Shown here: in pieces, positions 1,378 to 21,514 of the stretch
Layout: each line of letters begins with the position of its first letter
Numbering within the stretch: position 1 is the stretch's first letter
Assembly: GCA_003577165.1 (NCBI GenBank)
Contig: QEUM01000004.1
Location: 372,001-436,000, forward strand
Source: Armatimonadota bacterium
Lineage (GTDB): Bacteria; Armatimonadota; Fimbriimonadia; Fimbriimonadales; ATM1
DNA length: 64,000 nucleotides
Reading direction: 5' to 3'
Program-made: the position numbers and the translations under genes
Notes under the pieces: generated by a model
Seen by the model: the letters and a program-made list of their open reading frames with translations, nothing else
The model's database searches: none
What the model was told of the DNA's origin: nothing

Positions 1378-4214
1378 CCCCCGCCCTTAATCTCCAATCC
1401 GAGGGACTTGCCCTTGGCCGTTGCCGGGACTCCTTCCAGTAACCAGGCGGGCGCAGGCGCGCCCATGAGATAGTGGTCGAAGAACTGCTGCATGCGGATC
1501 GCCCAGTCTTTCTGGTTCACCCTCTTTCCGATTCCATGGTCTTCGCCGTTGTAGTTCACGAGCCAACTCGGCTTTCCGAGGCGGCGCAAGGCGGTAAACA
1601 ACTCGATGCCTTGCGTCCACGGCACGGCGCCGTCGTTGTCGTTGTGCAGGATGAGTAACGGAGTCGAGACCTTGTCCACCCAAAAGATCGGCGAGTTCTC
1701 AATGAAACGCAGCGGATAATCCCAAATCGTGCCGCCGATTCTGCTTTGCGTCTTTTCGTATTGGAACATCCGGCTCATTCCGGTGCCATACCGGATGCCA
1801 CCATAGGCGCTGATCATGTTCGAAACTGGCGCGCCGGCCTCTGCGCAGGCGAACAAGTTGGTCTGCGTCACCATATACGCGATCTGATATCCGCCCCAAC
1901 TGTGGCCCTGAATGCCGATCCGCTTGGGGTCGATGTAGCCGCGTCCCGCCACCTCTTGGATTCCGGACAGGACAGCCTTCATGCAACTGTCTCCCGGATA
2001 TCCGACGGTGTAGGGAATGTCGGGCCGGAACACAACGTAACCTCGGCTCACGTAGAAGGACGTGTTAATCGAGCTGCTTCCAGGAGCGGGAGGCGTGTAA
2101 GCATGGAGCGTGTCGCTGAGCCGCTCGTAGATGTAAACGAGAAGCGGATAGGACTTTCCTGGATCGAAGTTCTCCGGCTTATAAAGCACTCCGCTCAGCG
2201 GGACTCCGTCCGCCGATCTCCAAAAGACCAACTCCGATGTTCCCCAGTTGTAGTCTGACTGCTGTGGGTTCGCGTCGCTCACCTGCGTCTGCTGTGCGAA
2301 CGAAGTGGAGGCAACCCACAGGTTGGGGAATTCGGAGAAAGATTGTTTGGTGTAGACCACACGATCGGCGTTCTCAGCCTTCACCGGATTCGAGAACGCC
2401 TTCGGTTCGAGAACGAGTTTCTCGACCAGGGGCATCTGGCGCCACCGAACGCTGAAGAAGCCCTCATCTCGCGTTTCCAGATCTTCCGCCTTAAGGAGTA
2501 TTGGCTTTTCGACGTTCAACGCCCGTTCCGTGTCGAGGCGCACGATCCGCAGCTGCACGTTTCGGATCCTGCCATAGCCTCCCGTGAGGCACACAGGCCG
2601 ATCCTTCGCGGTGGGGTCGACAATCCAAGCGTCGAAGCGATCGTACACGACGACGGAGGCGTCATCGGTCGTCCATCCACCCAAGCCGTACGGTGGGGGG
2701 GGAGCCGGGTGATCGTCGAGTTCGTCGAACAGCGGGTGTCGGATACCGGACGTGATGGGGTACTTGTCGTGCGTCAGAACATTAAGCGCAAACCACTGCC
2801 GGACGTCGTTGTCGAACCACGTGATGAACTTCCCTTGCGGCGAGAACGAAACCGGCCCGTCGTGTTGTGTGAGGAACTGCTTCGCTTTGCCAGTGGCGAC
2901 GTCGACGAGATAGAGATCGCGATAAGTGGTATCCCAAGAGACGAGTTGGCGGTAGGGCAGGGAACTTGACCCAAGAGCGTATCTTCCGTCTCCTTCCTGC
3001 GACAGGGTCACGTCAGGCATGTCTTTCGTCGCAAGTTGCACGATCGTTCCTTCATTCAAGTGGCACACGGCGCGGAATGTGCGGTTGATTTCCGCGGAGG
3101 CCTGACGCAACTGCATTGGTTGGAGCAGCGGGTCTTTCCAGTTCCAAACGTCGAGGACGGGCTTTTCCTGTTCGTCGCCCTTCGGCTCCTCTTTGGGTTT
3201 TGCGGGCGCCGTCGAGAAATACAATCGGCTTCCGCTCTTTGAGAAGTCGAGACCCGGGTTGCTCGCGATTTCCCATCCGGCTGGAATGCCTGGCATTCCA
3301 TTCTCGATTACGTTTGAGAGTTGACCGTTTCTCCAGCAGTAGACCGCTTTTGCAGGTTCCTTCTGATCGTAAGTTTGGTGGTTGGAGGTGAACGCGATCT
3401 CCCCACCGGAATCGGACACAGTCAAATTCGCGACTGCTCCGACGCCTGCGAAAACCGTATTCGTGTCCCCGGATGAAGGGTCCAAGACAAAGACGCCGTC
3501 ATTTGCGCCCGACTTGCCGGAAACGACGTACACAAGGCTCTTTCCGTCTTCGGTCCAGGAAAAGTGAAGCACGTCTTCCAGCAGCAACCTGCGACCAGTT
3601 GCGAGTTCCTGGAGCACCAGCTTGGAGCCGAGAGGGTCAGAGGCCTTCTTCTGTGGCCCCTTCGGAGGCTGCGGAGTCTGTTTCGGCTCTTCCGCCGGAG
3701 GCGGCTTCTGACCCTCCGGTGCCGGCGCAGGGTCCTTCGTGGGCCTGAAGGCGAACCATCCTGCGTCTTTACCGGGGAAGGCAAGGGAGTCGACCCTCTC
3801 GGTCCGGACCACCTCCCCAGTCGTGAGGTTGAGAACGGCGAGCTCGTTCTTCGGCATCTCGTCCGGTTTCTTCTTCGCCTTCGTCGCCGCGTCAACATCC
3901 GCCTTCTTCGGGACGACCAGGCAGACGGCGAACTTGGAGTCGGACGAGAATCGGCCATTTGTCCCGCGCTCGATGGCCATATCCCGGCCCGTGGCCGTGT
4001 CCCGGACGATCAGTTTGGCGTCCCCCTCCGGCGGGGCCAAAACGTACTGGACGAACCGGCCGTCGGCCGAGATCGCCTGGCTCCGGAGAGACAGCCACTT
4101 GTCGTAATCCGAGTGGTCCAGCGGGCGCTCCTGGGCAAAAGCCGACAGGTGCAGGCAGACGGCAGCGAACAACAGCCCCAGGGGGCCAAGACGACCAAGA
4201 ACAGGACGCATCAA
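1374..4214 (-). CDS. Secreted prolyl oligopeptidase family (S9) serine peptidase
   Basis: A 946-residue protein with an N-terminal signal peptide ending near residue 27 (AVCLHLSAFAQ). A long beta-propeller-like region interrupted by a Pro/Lys/Glu-rich linker at about 160-190 leads into a C-terminal alpha/beta hydrolase. The nucleophile elbow is GHSWGGYQ (Ser about 772), the acid lies in HNDNDGAVPW (about 857) and the histidine in DHGIG (about 889). This is the catalytic order of dipeptidyl aminopeptidase/acylaminoacyl peptidase enzymes. It probably degrades peptides outside the inner membrane. A strong GGAGGGAGAGAG ribosome site precedes the ATG. It is divergent from motA. Confidence 0.9.
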   Translation of the reverse strand: MMRPVLGRLGPLGLLFAAVCLHLSAFAQERPLDHSDYDKWLSLRSQAISADGRFVQYVLAPPEGDAKLIVRDTATGRDMAIERGTNGRFSSDSKFAVCLVVPKKADVDAATKAKKKPDEMPKNELAVLNLTTGEVVRTERVDSLAFPGKDAGWFAFRPTKDPAPAPEGQKPPPAEEPKQTPQPPKGPQKKASDPLGSKLVLQELATGRRLLLEDVLHFSWTEDGKSLVYVVSGKSGANDGVFVLDPSSGDTNTVFAGVGAVANLTVSDSGGEIAFTSNHQTYDQKEPAKAVYCWRNGQLSNVIENGMPGIPAGWEIASNPGLDFSKSGSRLYFSTAPAKPKEEPKGDEQEKPVLDVWNWKDPLLQPMQLRQASAEINRTFRAVCHLNEGTIVQLATKDMPDVTLSQEGDGRYALGSSSLPYRQLVSWDTTYRDLYLVDVATGKAKQFLTQHDGPVSFSPQGKFITWFDNDVRQWFALNVLTHDKYPITSGIRHPLFDELDDHPAPPPPYGLGGWTTDDASVVVYDRFDAWIVDPTAKDRPVCLTGGYGRIRNVQLRIVRLDTERALNVEKPILLKAEDLETRDEGFFSVRWRQMPLVEKLVLEPKAFSNPVKAENADRVVYTKQSFSEFPNLWVASTSFAQQTQVSDANPQQSDYNWGTSELVFWRSADGVPLSGVLYKPENFDPGKSYPLLVYIYERLSDTLHAYTPPAPGSSSINTSFYVSRGYVVFRPDIPYTVGYPGDSCMKAVLSGIQEVAGRGYIDPKRIGIQGHSWGGYQIAYMVTQTNLFACAEAGAPVSNMISAYGGIRYGTGMSRMFQYEKTQSRIGGTIWDYPLRFIENSPIFWVDKVSTPLLILHNDNDGAVPWTQGIELFTALRRLGKPSWLVNYNGEDHGIGKRVNQKDWAIRMQQFFDHYLMGAPAPAWLLEGVPATAKGKSLGLEIKGGG

Positions 4215-4324
4215 CTCTCTCCCTCCAGATTCGGCCTCGAGGGGCCGAAACGAGGCAGAAGGATACTCCGCTCCGAGGGTCGCCGGGGGAGCCGGCTGGC
4301 AACCGTTTCTCGGGCGTGGCCAGG

Positions 4325-4352
4325 TTCAGTTTCAGGCGCAGGACGCCGATAT
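4325..4352 (+). promoter_or_regulatory. Sigma-28-like (FliA) promoter upstream of motA
   Basis: TTCAGTTT at 4325-4332 is followed after 12 bases by GCCGATAT at 4345-4352. The flagellar sigma-28 consensus is TAAAGTTT-N11-GCCGATAA, so the -10 matches 7 of 8 and the -35 matches 6 of 8 with one extra spacer base. It lies 53 bases before the motA ATG, where class-III flagellar promoters are expected. An anti-sigma-28 (FlgM) gene in the same window supports the reading. No transcript data are available. Confidence 0.55.
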
Positions 4353-4405
4353 GAAAGGGGGATGCTGCGGCCCCTTCCTACGAGTCTCCCCGGCGGTGAG
4401 GCCCC

Positions 4406-5260
4406 ATGATTATTGGCCTGATCGTCGTGCTCCTTGCCGTCCTCGGCGGATTCATGATCGCCGGCGGGCAGGTGGCCGTTCTCATCCAGATCTCCGAGTT
4501 CATCGTGATCGGCGGTGCGGCGATCGGCTCGATCCTGGTTTCGAATCCTCCCTCCTTCATCGGGAAGATGATCAAGGAGTGTATGACCTTGATGAAGCCG
4601 AGCCCCTACAGCAAGGACGCGTACATGTCGCTCCTGAAAATGCTGTTCAATATGTTCAACCTGGCTCGAAGGGACGGACTGCTTGCACTCGAGGGCCACG
4701 TCGAAGATCCTGAGAACAGTGAAGTCTTCAAGCAGTGTCCGCAACTTCTGGAGAACCATCACGCGCTTTCGTTCTTCGCAGACACAACGAAAGTGATTCT
4801 CACAGGCGCGGTTGCGCCACATGACTTGATGGAGATGATGGAGATTGATCTCGAAGTCTTCGATCACGAGGTGGGACACACTGCGCACGTCGTGCAAACA
4901 ACGGGAGATGCGATGCCTGGGTTTGGCATCGTCGCCGCGGTTTTGGGAGTCATCGTAACGATGGGCTCGATTGGCGGCGATCCCGCGCAGATCGGGCACC
5001 ACGTCGCCGCCGCTCTGGTGGGCACGATGCTCGGCGTGCTGATGGCCTACGGCGTTTTCGGCCCGATCGCCTCCGGACTGATGAAGCGCAACAAGCAGGC
5101 GATTCAGTACATGCACTGCGTTCGCTACGCGCTCTTTAGTTTTGCGCGGGGCGAAAGTCCCATCACGTGCATCGAATTTGCGCGAAGAAATATTGATCCG
5201 GAAATCCGTCCGAGTTTTTCCGAGATGGAGAAAGCGGTCCGCAACAAGGAAGCCGCCTAA
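4406..5260 (+). CDS. motA: Flagellar motor stator protein MotA
   Basis: A 284-residue inner-membrane protein of normal MotA length. Two N-terminal membrane helices (from MIIGLIVVLLAVLGGFMIAG) are followed by a cytoplasmic loop of about 120 residues. Two more helices carry the conserved PGFGIVAAVLGVIVTMGSIG and LVGTMLGVLMAYGVFGP segments. With MotB it forms the proton-conducting stator of the flagellar motor. motB begins three bases after its stop codon, and a sigma-28-like promoter lies upstream. No other flagellar structural genes lie in this window. Confidence 0.95.
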   Translation: MIIGLIVVLLAVLGGFMIAGGQVAVLIQISEFIVIGGAAIGSILVSNPPSFIGKMIKECMTLMKPSPYSKDAYMSLLKMLFNMFNLARRDGLLALEGHVEDPENSEVFKQCPQLLENHHALSFFADTTKVILTGAVAPHDLMEMMEIDLEVFDHEVGHTAHVVQTTGDAMPGFGIVAAVLGVIVTMGSIGGDPAQIGHHVAAALVGTMLGVLMAYGVFGPIASGLMKRNKQAIQYMHCVRYALFSFARGESPITCIEFARRNIDPEIRPSFSEMEKAVRNKEAA

Positions 5261-17825: not shown

Positions 17826-19376
17826 CTACGTCAAAACAGCATCGGCGGCGGGTTTTCCCCAGCCTCCTCCGCCTGGCGTCTCGATCCGAACGACATCGTC
17901 CTGAGCAAGCCGAACCACGTCGCGTGACCCAAGGGGTCGAGACTCTCCTCGACGAAGAAGTAGGTTCCTTCCGGGCGAGCCGGGCGCGCCCCCTTGCGCT
18001 CCGCACGGCCCGGATGTTCGGCGCTCCGTCATCAGGCTCAGCGTCACCTCGTCCTCAAGAACTTCGAATTCGCGGATCACTCCGTCGCCGCCGCTATGCA
18101 CTCCGTCGCCTCCGCTGCCGCGCCGCATTTCGTAGCGTGAGAACCTCACTGGCAATTCGATTTCCATCGCCTCGATGGGAGTGTTCCGGGTGTTCGTCAT
18201 GTGGGTGTGGACTGCGCTCGCACCCGCTCGATTCGGCCCCCCTCCGGCGCCTCCGGCAATCGTTTCGTAGTAAGCCCATTCGTCAGTGCCGAGGGCAAGG
18301 TTGTTCATCGTCCCCTGACTGCAAGCAGGTGCCAGGTCGGGAAGCGCCTGTTGCAGCGTTCTCAGAATTGCGTCGACTGTGCGCTGACTCGTCTCCGTGT
18401 TTCCGGCAACGACAGGCGCCGGATAGACGGCGTTGAGAATCGTGCCGGCAGGGACATTCACGGACACAGGCGCAAAACACCCATGATTCGCGGGCGCTTC
18501 AGAACAGAGGCAGCGGACAACGTAATAGCACGCCGATCGCGTTACTGCCTCGGTTGCGTTGATTCCCATCGGAGCCAGCGGACTCGTCCCGGAAAAGTCG
18601 AATGTGATCCCGCCGTTTCCATCGCACTCAATCCGTAGGCAGATATTCAGAACCTCACCGTCGTCGAGCGGATCGAGGCTCTCCCGTGCAGTCCACTCGC
18701 CTCGCGGAACGCTTCTCAGGAAGTTACGCGTGTGAGCCTCGGAGTAGGCGAGGCACTGGGCGATGCGCTCGTCGAACTCGTCGCCCCACCGGTTCGCCAG
18801 AGAGGACAGGCGATCCGCGCCGACGAGGTTCGCTGCCGCTTGCGCCTGAAGGTCGCCTATCCGCTCCTTCGGGTTCCTCATCTGGCCCGCAAGTTCGGCG
18901 ATGAGTTCGGCGGTCGCTTCCTGTGGCCGGACGAGGACGCCTTCTTCGTGCACCGACGGCGCCGGAGCAAAACTCCCCGGGCTGCTTCCGCCCACGTCGG
19001 CATGGTGAGCACGATTCGCGACATAGCCGATGATCCTCCCTCGCACTTCAACGGCGCGTAGGAATGTGATGTCCGGAAGGTGCGTCCCGGCGAAAAAGGG
19101 GTCGTTCGAGATGTACGTTCGGCCCGCCTCGATGCTGGGGCCGTCGGCAAGCCACTTTTGCAGAAGGAACTCCATCGCGCCCAAATGGACCGGGATGTGA
19201 GCCGCCTGCGCTGCCAACAGTCCCGACGACGTAAACAGCCCGCAGGAGTAGTCCCTGCGCTCTTTGATGTTCGGAGAGAAGGAGCTTCGCTCGAGTACGG
19301 TCCCCATCTCCTCCGCAATGCTGGACAACAACTGTGAGTACAGGCCAACGCTTGCGGCGTCGAATCCGGTCGTCAT
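17826..19376 (-). CDS. Hydantoinase B / oxoprolinase family protein
   Basis: A 516-residue protein of the HyuB/N-methylhydantoinase B family. It starts [20 protein letters not shown] and continues with family features [37 protein letters not shown] and the Gly-rich end [12 protein letters not shown]. HyuB works with HyuA to hydrolyse hydantoins or 5-oxoproline using ATP. No hyuA is adjacent. Its ATG overlaps the hslU stop in an ATGA arrangement, so the two are translationally coupled, an unusual pairing. Confidence 0.88.
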
Positions 19377-20815
19377 AAGATGTATTTCGAGAGGTCAACG
19401 TCTCTTACGAGGTCGCTCAATTTCTCGCGTACCGCGTCGGCATCGATTCTCACCGTCGTTCGCTTGGGGTTCGGCGCGTCGAAAAGGGCGTCTTCCAGTA
19501 AGCGCTCCATGATCGTGTGCAGCCGTCTCGCGCCGATGTTCTCGGTCTTCGAGTTCACTTCGTGAGCCATGGCCGCGATCGCATCGATCGCATCGTCGGT
19601 GAATTCGAGATTCACTCCGTCCGCTGCGAGAAGCAGTTGGTATTGCGTCGTCAGCGCGTTCTTGGGTTCTGTGAGGATTCTGCGCAAGTCCGCTTCACCG
19701 AGGTCGCTCAGTTCGACGCGAATCGGAAGCCGCCCCTGCAGTTCGGGAATCAGATCGCTCGGTTTGCTGATGTGAAACGCACCGGCGCCGATGAAGAGAA
19801 TGTGGTCGGTCCTTACCGAACCGAACTTGGTGACGACCGTCGAACCTTCAATGATGGGCAGCAGGTCTCGCTGAACGCCTTCTCGGGACACGTCCGGTCC
19901 TGCGCCCCCCTCCCGGCCGGCGATCTTGTCCAGTTCGTCTATGAAGACGATGCCAGTCTGTTCGGCCCGCTCGATCGCCTCCCGCTGAAGTGCGGACCGA
20001 TCAATCAGCTTAGCGGCCTCCTCTTCGGTGAGCAGTTCCTTCGCCTCGCGGATGGGCACTTTGCGCGACGTGTGCCGCGTCCCGAACGCGGAGTTCAACT
20101 TCGAGGACAAATCGAACCCCATCTCCTCCATCCCTTGAGGCGAAAACACTTGCAGGAACGGCGAATTGGACTCTTCCACTTCGATCTCGACCGTCTCGTC
20201 GTCTCGCAAGCCTTCGGCGATCTGCTGGCGCACTTTCTCCCGCCGCCTTTGGTAAGCCGCTTCCGCCTTCTCGTCCTCCTTGTCCTCTTGTTGAGGTTCG
20301 GACGACGGCGAATCAGATCGCGCGCGCAGCAAGTGTTCGACGGCGGCGGCGAAATTCTGCTCGTGGCTCCGAGCGCGCGCCTCGTGGGTCGGCTTAACGA
20401 TCAGGTCCGTCAGTCGTTCGATCGCCAAGTGGAGCGCCTTCGGTCGGACTTCTTCGATCTTCTCCGTTTCGACAAGCCGCACCGCGACGTTGACGAGGTC
20501 GCGAACGATGCTCTCCACGTCGCGCCCTACGTATCCGACTTCGGTGAATTTCGTCGCTTCGACCTTCACAAACGGAGCCCGCACCAACTGAGCGAGCCGT
20601 CGCGCGATTTCCGTCTTGCCGACACCCGTTGGCCCGATCATTAAGATGTTCTTCGGGATGATGTCTTCGCGCTGTCCCGGTGGAAGTTGCTGACGACGGT
20701 ACCGGTTGCGAATTGCGACCGCCACGGCTCTCTTTGCGTCGTTCTGGCCGATGATATATCGGTCCAGTTCTGCAACAATCTCTCGCGGCGTCAGATCCTC
20801 GATCGGAAGGCCCAT
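19373..20815 (-). CDS. hslU: HslU, ATPase subunit of the HslUV protease
   Basis: A 480-residue AAA+ unfoldase. The N-terminus [23 protein letters not shown], Walker [10 protein letters not shown] (about residue 60), the pore motif GYVGRD, Walker [11 protein letters not shown] and the sensor region [11 protein letters not shown] all match HslU. The variable I-domain (about 130-250) is charged. The C-terminal tail LSKYIL fits the family's HslV-activating end. The protease subunit gene hslV, normally just upstream, is not present here. It overlaps the downstream hyuB by four bases. Confidence 0.93.
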
Positions 20816-20881
20816 GGGAACCTCCGAAGTCTACCCGAGAGCTATGTGAACCACGGCGAGAATGGAGCGTCAAACCGGAAT

Positions 20882-21514
20882 ATGACGGCGCAATTCATCG
20901 CCTCGTTAGGCTGCATCTTGACTCTCCAGGTCGCCGCGCAGCGCCCGAGAGACAACTCGCCTGCGCTCGGCTCTCTTGCGCCCGAATTCACCGCGAAGTA
21001 CCTCGGCCGGGACGAGACGTTCAGCCTGCAGTCCAACTTTGGCAAGGTCCCAACGGTTCTGATATTCGGCAGTTACACCTGACCTCCATTCCGTGCGCAG
21101 GCTGCGCAACTCGAATCACTCTATAAGCGCTACAAGGATCGGGCCGACTTCAAAGTTGTCTACATTCGTGAGGCGCATCCGGAAGACGGGTGGCAAGTTC
21201 CGCAAAACAAGAACCAAGGGGTGATTTACAACGAACCCAAGACCCTGGCCGAGCGCGAATCCATCGCATCCCATTGTGCAAGGGCGCTCAACCTCTCGAT
21301 TCCGATCCTGATCGACGGCATGGACGATGGCATCGAGAAGCGATACAGCGGTTGGCCCGATCGCATCTTCATCGTAGACAAGGCGGGGAAGATCTCATAC
21401 AAGGGTGAGCCCGGACCCGCAGGTTTCAAACCTCGAGAGGCGGAAGCCGCACTAAACAGACTTCTGCTCGAAAGCGAAGCTACAGACCGATCACCATTCG
21501 CACCCAAGACTTGA
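20882..21514 (+). CDS. Iodothyronine deiodinase-like selenoprotein (Sec at in-frame TGA)
   Basis: Read through the TGA at 21080-21082 this is a 210-residue protein with selenocysteine at residue 67. A short signal-like N-terminus (FIASLGCILTLQVAAQ) precedes a thioredoxin-fold domain. The active-site context is FGSYT-U-PPFRAQ, followed by VVYIREAHPEDGW. Both closely match the deiodinase signatures FGSCT-U-PPF and EEAHPSDGW. The sequence remains coding-like for 143 residues after the TGA (IPILIDGMDDGIEKRYSGWP, then RIFIVDKAGK). A bacterial SECIS-like hairpin sits at the expected distance. Bacterial homologues may act as thiol or peroxide reductases; the true substrate is unknown. The 3' end overlaps the convergent GT2 gene by 35 bases. 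Confidence 0.87.
21080..21110 (+). promoter_or_regulatory. Putative bacterial SECIS element after the in-frame TGA
   Basis: TGA at 21080-21082 is followed 11 bases later by the hairpin TGCGC-AGGCT-GCGCA (stem 21094-21098 with 21104-21108, loop 21099-21103). The loop begins 16 bases after the TGA. In E. coli fdhF the stem-loop TGC-AGGTCT-GCA begins its loop 17 bases after the TGA, so spacing and loop sequence are both close. It would recruit SelB to insert selenocysteine. It lies inside the coding sequence, as bacterial SECIS elements do. Confidence 0.7.

Follow-up and report, generated by a model that had tools for sequence, protein, structure and literature searches.

Background

A 2005 study of the Sargasso Sea described deiodinase-like proteins of bacteria, in both Sec and Cys forms and with the expectation that thyroid hormones do not occur in such bacteria (PMC1088965). 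Two reviews give the motif of the prokaryotic family as UxxC (PMC9312934, PMC13188914). No papers on the activity of these bacterial proteins were found in the open-access literature that we searched. The gene described here lies in a stretch of 64,000 nucleotides from an Armatimonadota genome, referred to below as the window. It shares with the bacterial deiodinase-like selenoprotein the Pfam family PF00837, the existence of Sec and Cys forms and a bacterial SECIS (PMC1088965, PMC9312934, PMC13188914), and it adds to the kind described since 2005 and is not a new kind. In contrast to the UxxC form of the reviews, the motif here is UPPF: position 70 (U+3) is Phe in every one of the 49 Sec forms aligned, and the second Cys lies distally, at residue 132 (Cys132). 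It may be that the reviews drew the UxxC motif from a different branch of the family. A conserved distal Cys together with the absence of UxxC was not found described in the open-access papers searched.

The animal enzymes Dio1–Dio3 offer the second comparison. The bacterial protein resembles them in its fold, in the position of Sec, in the stretches xT-U-PPF and EAHPxDGW, in the catalytic His and Glu and in Arg161. It is unlike them in that its SECIS adjoins the UGA rather than lying in the 3′ UTR, in having Cys132 (Leu in mouse Dio2 and Dio3), in a clamp residue that is not conserved and in having no thyroid hormone context. With the ResA/TlpA oxidoreductases and the peroxiredoxins it shares the thioredoxin fold, but it has no CxxC. 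The NCBIfam model NF038285 (deiodinase_rel) gives 207.4 bits, short of its cut-off of 250 bits, with only positions 174–346 of 347, the second half of the model, being matched.

The in-frame TGA codon

The reading frame opens with an ATG at 20882 on the forward strand, is interrupted by a single in-frame TGA and is otherwise open to a terminal TGA stop at 21512–21514 (Table 1). The original prediction held that the internal TGA divides two coding parts of the same frame and that ordinary ORF calling would break the gene in two. Its coordinates proved exact, and mechanical calling does return two pieces, 20687–21082 (131 aa) and 21221–21514 (97 aa). The predicted joint, FGSYT-U-PPFRAQ and then YIREAHPEDGW, is present and aligns with FGSCT-C-PPF and YIEEAHPSDGW of mouse Dio3; mouse Dio2 aligns over the same stretches (FGSxT-C-PPF and EAHPSDGW). 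The Cys in these mouse entries is Sec in nature. When TGA is translated as U, the read-through product scores 99.6 bits against PF00837 (T4_deiodinase, curated cut-off 27), and the 3′ fragment by itself scores 31.4 bits. Matches of the read-through protein to the Redoxin and AhpC-TSA families are weaker, yet above cut-off.

Table 1. Features of the selenoprotein gene, in positions of the window
Feature	Position	Strand	Basis
Deiodinase-like selenoprotein CDS (probable), 210 aa with Sec67	20882..21514	+	Translation with TGA as U; Pfam PF00837, 99.6 bits; search of its own genome
Hydrophobic N-terminus, residues 1–19, probable signal peptide or anchor	20882..20938	+	Hydropathy; the cleavage site is a guess
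Selenocysteine codon 67 (probable), in-frame TGA	21080..21082	+	Site with only TGA or Cys codons in strong homologues; Sec machinery of the genome
Bacterial SECIS hairpin core, TGCGC-AGGCT-GCGCA	21094..21108	+	Position; kept in Sec and absent in Cys homologues; covariation
EAH motif codons, Glu97, Ala98 and His99	21170..21178	+	Invariant in 72 sequences; roles from PMC11592359
Cys132 codon, candidate resolving cysteine	21275..21277	+	Cys in 46/49 Sec forms; Leu in mouse Dio2/Dio3

A scan of named genomes yielded 53 loci, distributed over Planctomycetota, Chloroflexota, Actinomycetota, Pseudomonadota, Myxococcota, Latescibacterota and other phyla. Of the 76 strong homologue sequences that span the site, 52 have TGA there, a number that includes a few near-duplicates or paralogues, and 24 have TGC or TGT; TAA, TAG or any other codon occurs in none. 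An in-frame UGA is thus aligned with Cys or UGA codons and flanked by coding conservation on both sides, which is one criterion for a bacterial selenoprotein. Were the TGA a true stop, the gene would be a pseudogene or would carry a sequencing error from a Cys codon, and the Cys codons of homologues and the two fragments of plain ORF calling do agree with such a reading. Speaking against it are the recurrence of TGA, never TAA or TAG, at the same codon in homologues from many phyla, the invariant residues downstream, a SECIS that is conserved and covarying (see below) and the company of SelB with the Sec form. A sequencing error is unlikely because the 52 TGA records are independent or semi-independent, and with the codon conserved and no other stop found at the site we regard a true stop as scarcely credible. 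Genome-wide recoding of TGA was also rejected, given that the gene's own terminal stop is TGA and that homologues have Cys at the site.

The source genome (2.75 Mb in 23 contigs, 97.5% complete) encodes SelA (491 bits), SelB (376 bits), SelD (355 bits) and a tRNA-Sec (76.4 bits) with anticodon TCA (UCA). The original prediction had been staked on the presence of sel genes and on homologues that align across the TGA. The sel set is complete, and the alignment spans the TGA with either TGA or Cys at the site. Codon 67 is therefore almost certainly selenocysteine, judging by these comparisons of sequence, and the gene a deiodinase-like selenoprotein. The selD gene of this genome (L009 1495–2553; G000:C18 from about 275934) has an in-frame TGA of its own at the active site, MVDCAG-U-ASKL, with a GGT-loop hairpin 32 nt past it. 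This TGA would make SelD itself a selenoprotein, and its gene the second in the genome to use the same device.

Distribution of Sec and Cys forms

A survey of 291 genomes of the phylum found 24 with a homologue over the Pfam cut-off, 19 with TGA and 5 with Cys at the site. SelB passed its cut-off in 18 of the 19 Sec-form genomes versus none of the 5 Cys-form genomes (Fisher p 1.4e-4, which serves only as a guide since the genomes are related). The lone Sec-form genome that lacks SelB over the cut-off (G067, of the window's family) comes as an assembly of 320 contigs with 88% completeness. Explaining the Sec label on a tree built from 74 sequences takes 6 changes, at least 2 of them forced by well-supported branches, and the window's gene belongs to a group of 11 Sec forms that is itself supported. 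A search of plasmids for homologues gave one distant match.

Several relatives have architectures of their own. A genome of the same order carries three deiodinase-like Sec genes in tandem (L022/L108, G123:C134 at about 3160–4939); in the first two of these (L022b, L022c) the SECIS is weaker or elsewhere and the N-termini resemble lipoprotein signals. The Cys forms L037–L041 from the same phylum are without Cys132, come from genomes without SelB over the cut-off and have a long C-terminal extension with esterase-like GGGW and GGSAGG motifs, an alpha/beta hydrolase by eye. A planctomycete Cys form (L066) runs on into a long C-terminal extension that carries an AhpD-like YCxxHC motif, which suggests a fusion of two redox domains.

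The SECIS hairpin

The original prediction placed a hairpin just past the TGA that would be close to the SECIS of E. coli fdhF in distance and loop, and the likeness is real. The loop here, AGGCT on a stem of 5–6 bp, begins after 16 nt from the TGA; the fdhF loop, AGGTCT, starts after 17 nt. The bSECIS model of PMC13188914 describes a loop of 3–9 nt with G in the first two places, an upper stem of 4–16 bp, a loop 16–37 nt past the UGA and an energy of at most −7.5 kcal/mol. The hairpin conforms to this model when the energy is taken over the 45 nt after the TGA (−8.9 kcal/mol); the 15-nt core alone has −7.0 kcal/mol. Single-sequence folding was unremarkable (z 0.14, not significant) and was dropped as proof of a SECIS in favor of covariation and codon-shuffle tests. 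An Rfam search with the hairpin returned nothing relevant.

Most Sec homologues start their loop at 16–17 nt or in a second register at 20–21 nt, and most open it with AGG, GG, AGT or CGG. No comparable hairpin was found in the Cys homologues. In a test with 500 synonymous-codon shuffles, the hairpin beat the shuffled sequences at p<=0.05 in 34 of 52 Sec genes versus 0 of 24 Cys genes. Covariation was scored in the 16 sequences that share the window's register, which were sorted into loop-length groups post hoc, a choice that favors pairing somewhat: pairing cells reached 95.8% versus 71.4% when shuffled, double-change cells 30 versus 6.8 and covariation 0.756 versus 0.231, with 0 of 500 shuffles as high. 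Three adjacent stem pairs have 8–11 double changes each, and sliding the partner by 1–3 columns destroyed the covariation signal. As far as comparison of homologues can establish it, this hairpin is a conserved, covarying bacterial SECIS. The second register is found across several branches (L075, L077, L080, L082, L084, L088, L089 and others).

Fold and active site

Among solved structures, mouse Dio3 (7.7e-19) is the best match by sequence and mouse Dio2 (1.6e-16) the next. An AlphaFold2 model (mean pLDDT 91.9, pTM 0.84) has Dio2 and Dio3 as its best fold matches, followed by ResA/TlpA-like proteins (ResA and DsbE-like proteins). In an alignment of 72 sequences, F62, G63, U/C67, Y94, E97, A98, H99, R125, D145 and P159, which lie on both sides of the TGA, are invariant. 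With the substrate site of the deiodinases taken from PMC11592359, His99 is the counterpart of Dio2 His162 and Dio3 His202, Asp160-Arg161 of Dio2 Glu225-Arg226, and Pro159 of Dio1 Pro213, a position that is Phe in Dio2 and Dio3. Sec, Glu97, His99 and Asp/Glu160-Arg161 are retained in all 49 Sec forms. These comparisons support a thioredoxin fold of the deiodinase kind, with Sec67, Glu97, His99, Pro159 and Arg161 of the catalytic site retained. Where Dio3 has Arg275 and Dio2 has Lys241 to clamp the thyronine carboxylate, the residue here is Pro177, and the position varies across the family; the difference is not decisive given that Dio1 likewise lacks the clamp residue (PMC11592359). Here "deiodinase" is the name of a family, and with the clamp residue not conserved it carries no implication of thyroid hormone deiodination.

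Cys132 is located in helix 122–135 of the model and is usually the only other core Cys of the Sec forms that have it. The three Sec forms without it have Cys65 (L020, FGSCTU as in Dio3), Cys133 and Cys142 (L049) or only Cys115 (L071). A short hhalign alignment with E. coli Tpx (61.5% probability) pairs Sec67 with the Thr of TxxC and Phe70 with its Cys, which corresponds to the first Cys in CxxC; by this weak alignment the peroxidatic residue is not at the Cys position of a peroxiredoxin TxxC. A correspondence between Cys132 and the resolving Cys of Tpx, suggested by local spacing, was set aside as analogy only since hhalign covered the first 66 columns only.

Export and gene neighborhood

The N-terminus has a hydropathy of 2.01 over 14 residues, and a hydrophobic stretch there is common to most of the relatives in its family and order; a lipobox-like Cys is seen at the N-terminus in two paralogues of the genome with the tandem genes. 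The expectation of a secreted or membrane-linked enzyme fits the window's gene and these near relatives, but it does not extend to most relatives in other phyla, from which the hydrophobic stretch is missing. The protein of the window is likely exported, judging by its predicted N-terminus.

The gene stands alone. On one side an AAA ATPase gene, which we take to be hslU, runs away from it, and on the other side a family-2 glycosyltransferase gene faces it. The order gyrB, hydantoinase B, hslU recurs in one relative of the same family (G070). The hydantoinase B/oxoprolinase gene (17826–19376 of the window, reverse strand) lies between gyrB and hslU, with no partner A subunit noted alongside. 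Neighbors that would indicate a substrate or a link to halogens were not seen when gene neighborhoods were compared, including across phyla.

Possible mechanism and reaction

Sequence comparison supports a reading of the internal TGA as Sec by SelB and tRNA-Sec(UCA) by way of the hairpin just downstream. Beyond this, we propose that the protein would be exported and work outside the cytoplasm. The selenolate of Sec67 would then attack an oxidizing or halogenated substrate as the nucleophile, Cys132 would resolve the oxidized selenium and a cellular thiol system would recycle the enzyme. Its neighbors in fold belong to the redox enzymes, and thyroid hormones would not be expected in such bacteria (PMC1088965); for these reasons our first guess is peroxide-type reduction. 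The substrate of this thioredoxin-fold selenoenzyme may well be a peroxide or a related electrophile.

Two other reactions of the same selenoprotein have to be weighed. The main alternative is reductive dehalogenation of a small halogenated aromatic, with chemistry near that of the animal deiodinases. This reaction stays in consideration since the protein retains most of the deiodinase site, including a Pro159 as in Dio1, and it agrees with Dio2 and Dio3 being the best folds; the Pro at the variable clamp position (for all that Dio1 also lacks the clamp), the neighborhood without halogen-related genes and the lack of an expected thyroid hormone (PMC1088965) weigh against it, and we consider it rather unlikely. 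Less probable still is a thiol-disulfide oxidoreductase of the ResA/TlpA type that acts on exported proteins. Its case draws on the probable export and on the next-best folds, ResA and DsbE-like proteins, for which the first part of the profile gives matches as well, but with neither CxxC nor UxxC and with Phe70 constant the vicinal pair is missing, and the EAHPxDGW stretch is a deiodinase feature. Returning to the peroxide-type enzyme with dehalogenation beside it, we put forward tentatively a wider possibility: the UPPF-type bacterial proteins could form a class with a Sec67–Cys132 redox pair, exported in Armatimonadota and distinct from both the UxxC form and the animal deiodinases, whose members act as peroxidases or as dehalogenases of small halogenated aromatics.

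Significance

The analysis settles one split gene and illustrates that an entire enzyme goes missing in standard annotation. A good number of Sec forms from the phylum of the window are added as well, in which the switch between Sec and Cys follows SelB. Cys132 offers a testable redox partner for the bacterial members of the family, known since 2005, and it bears on the role that the enzyme may have where thyroid hormone is absent.
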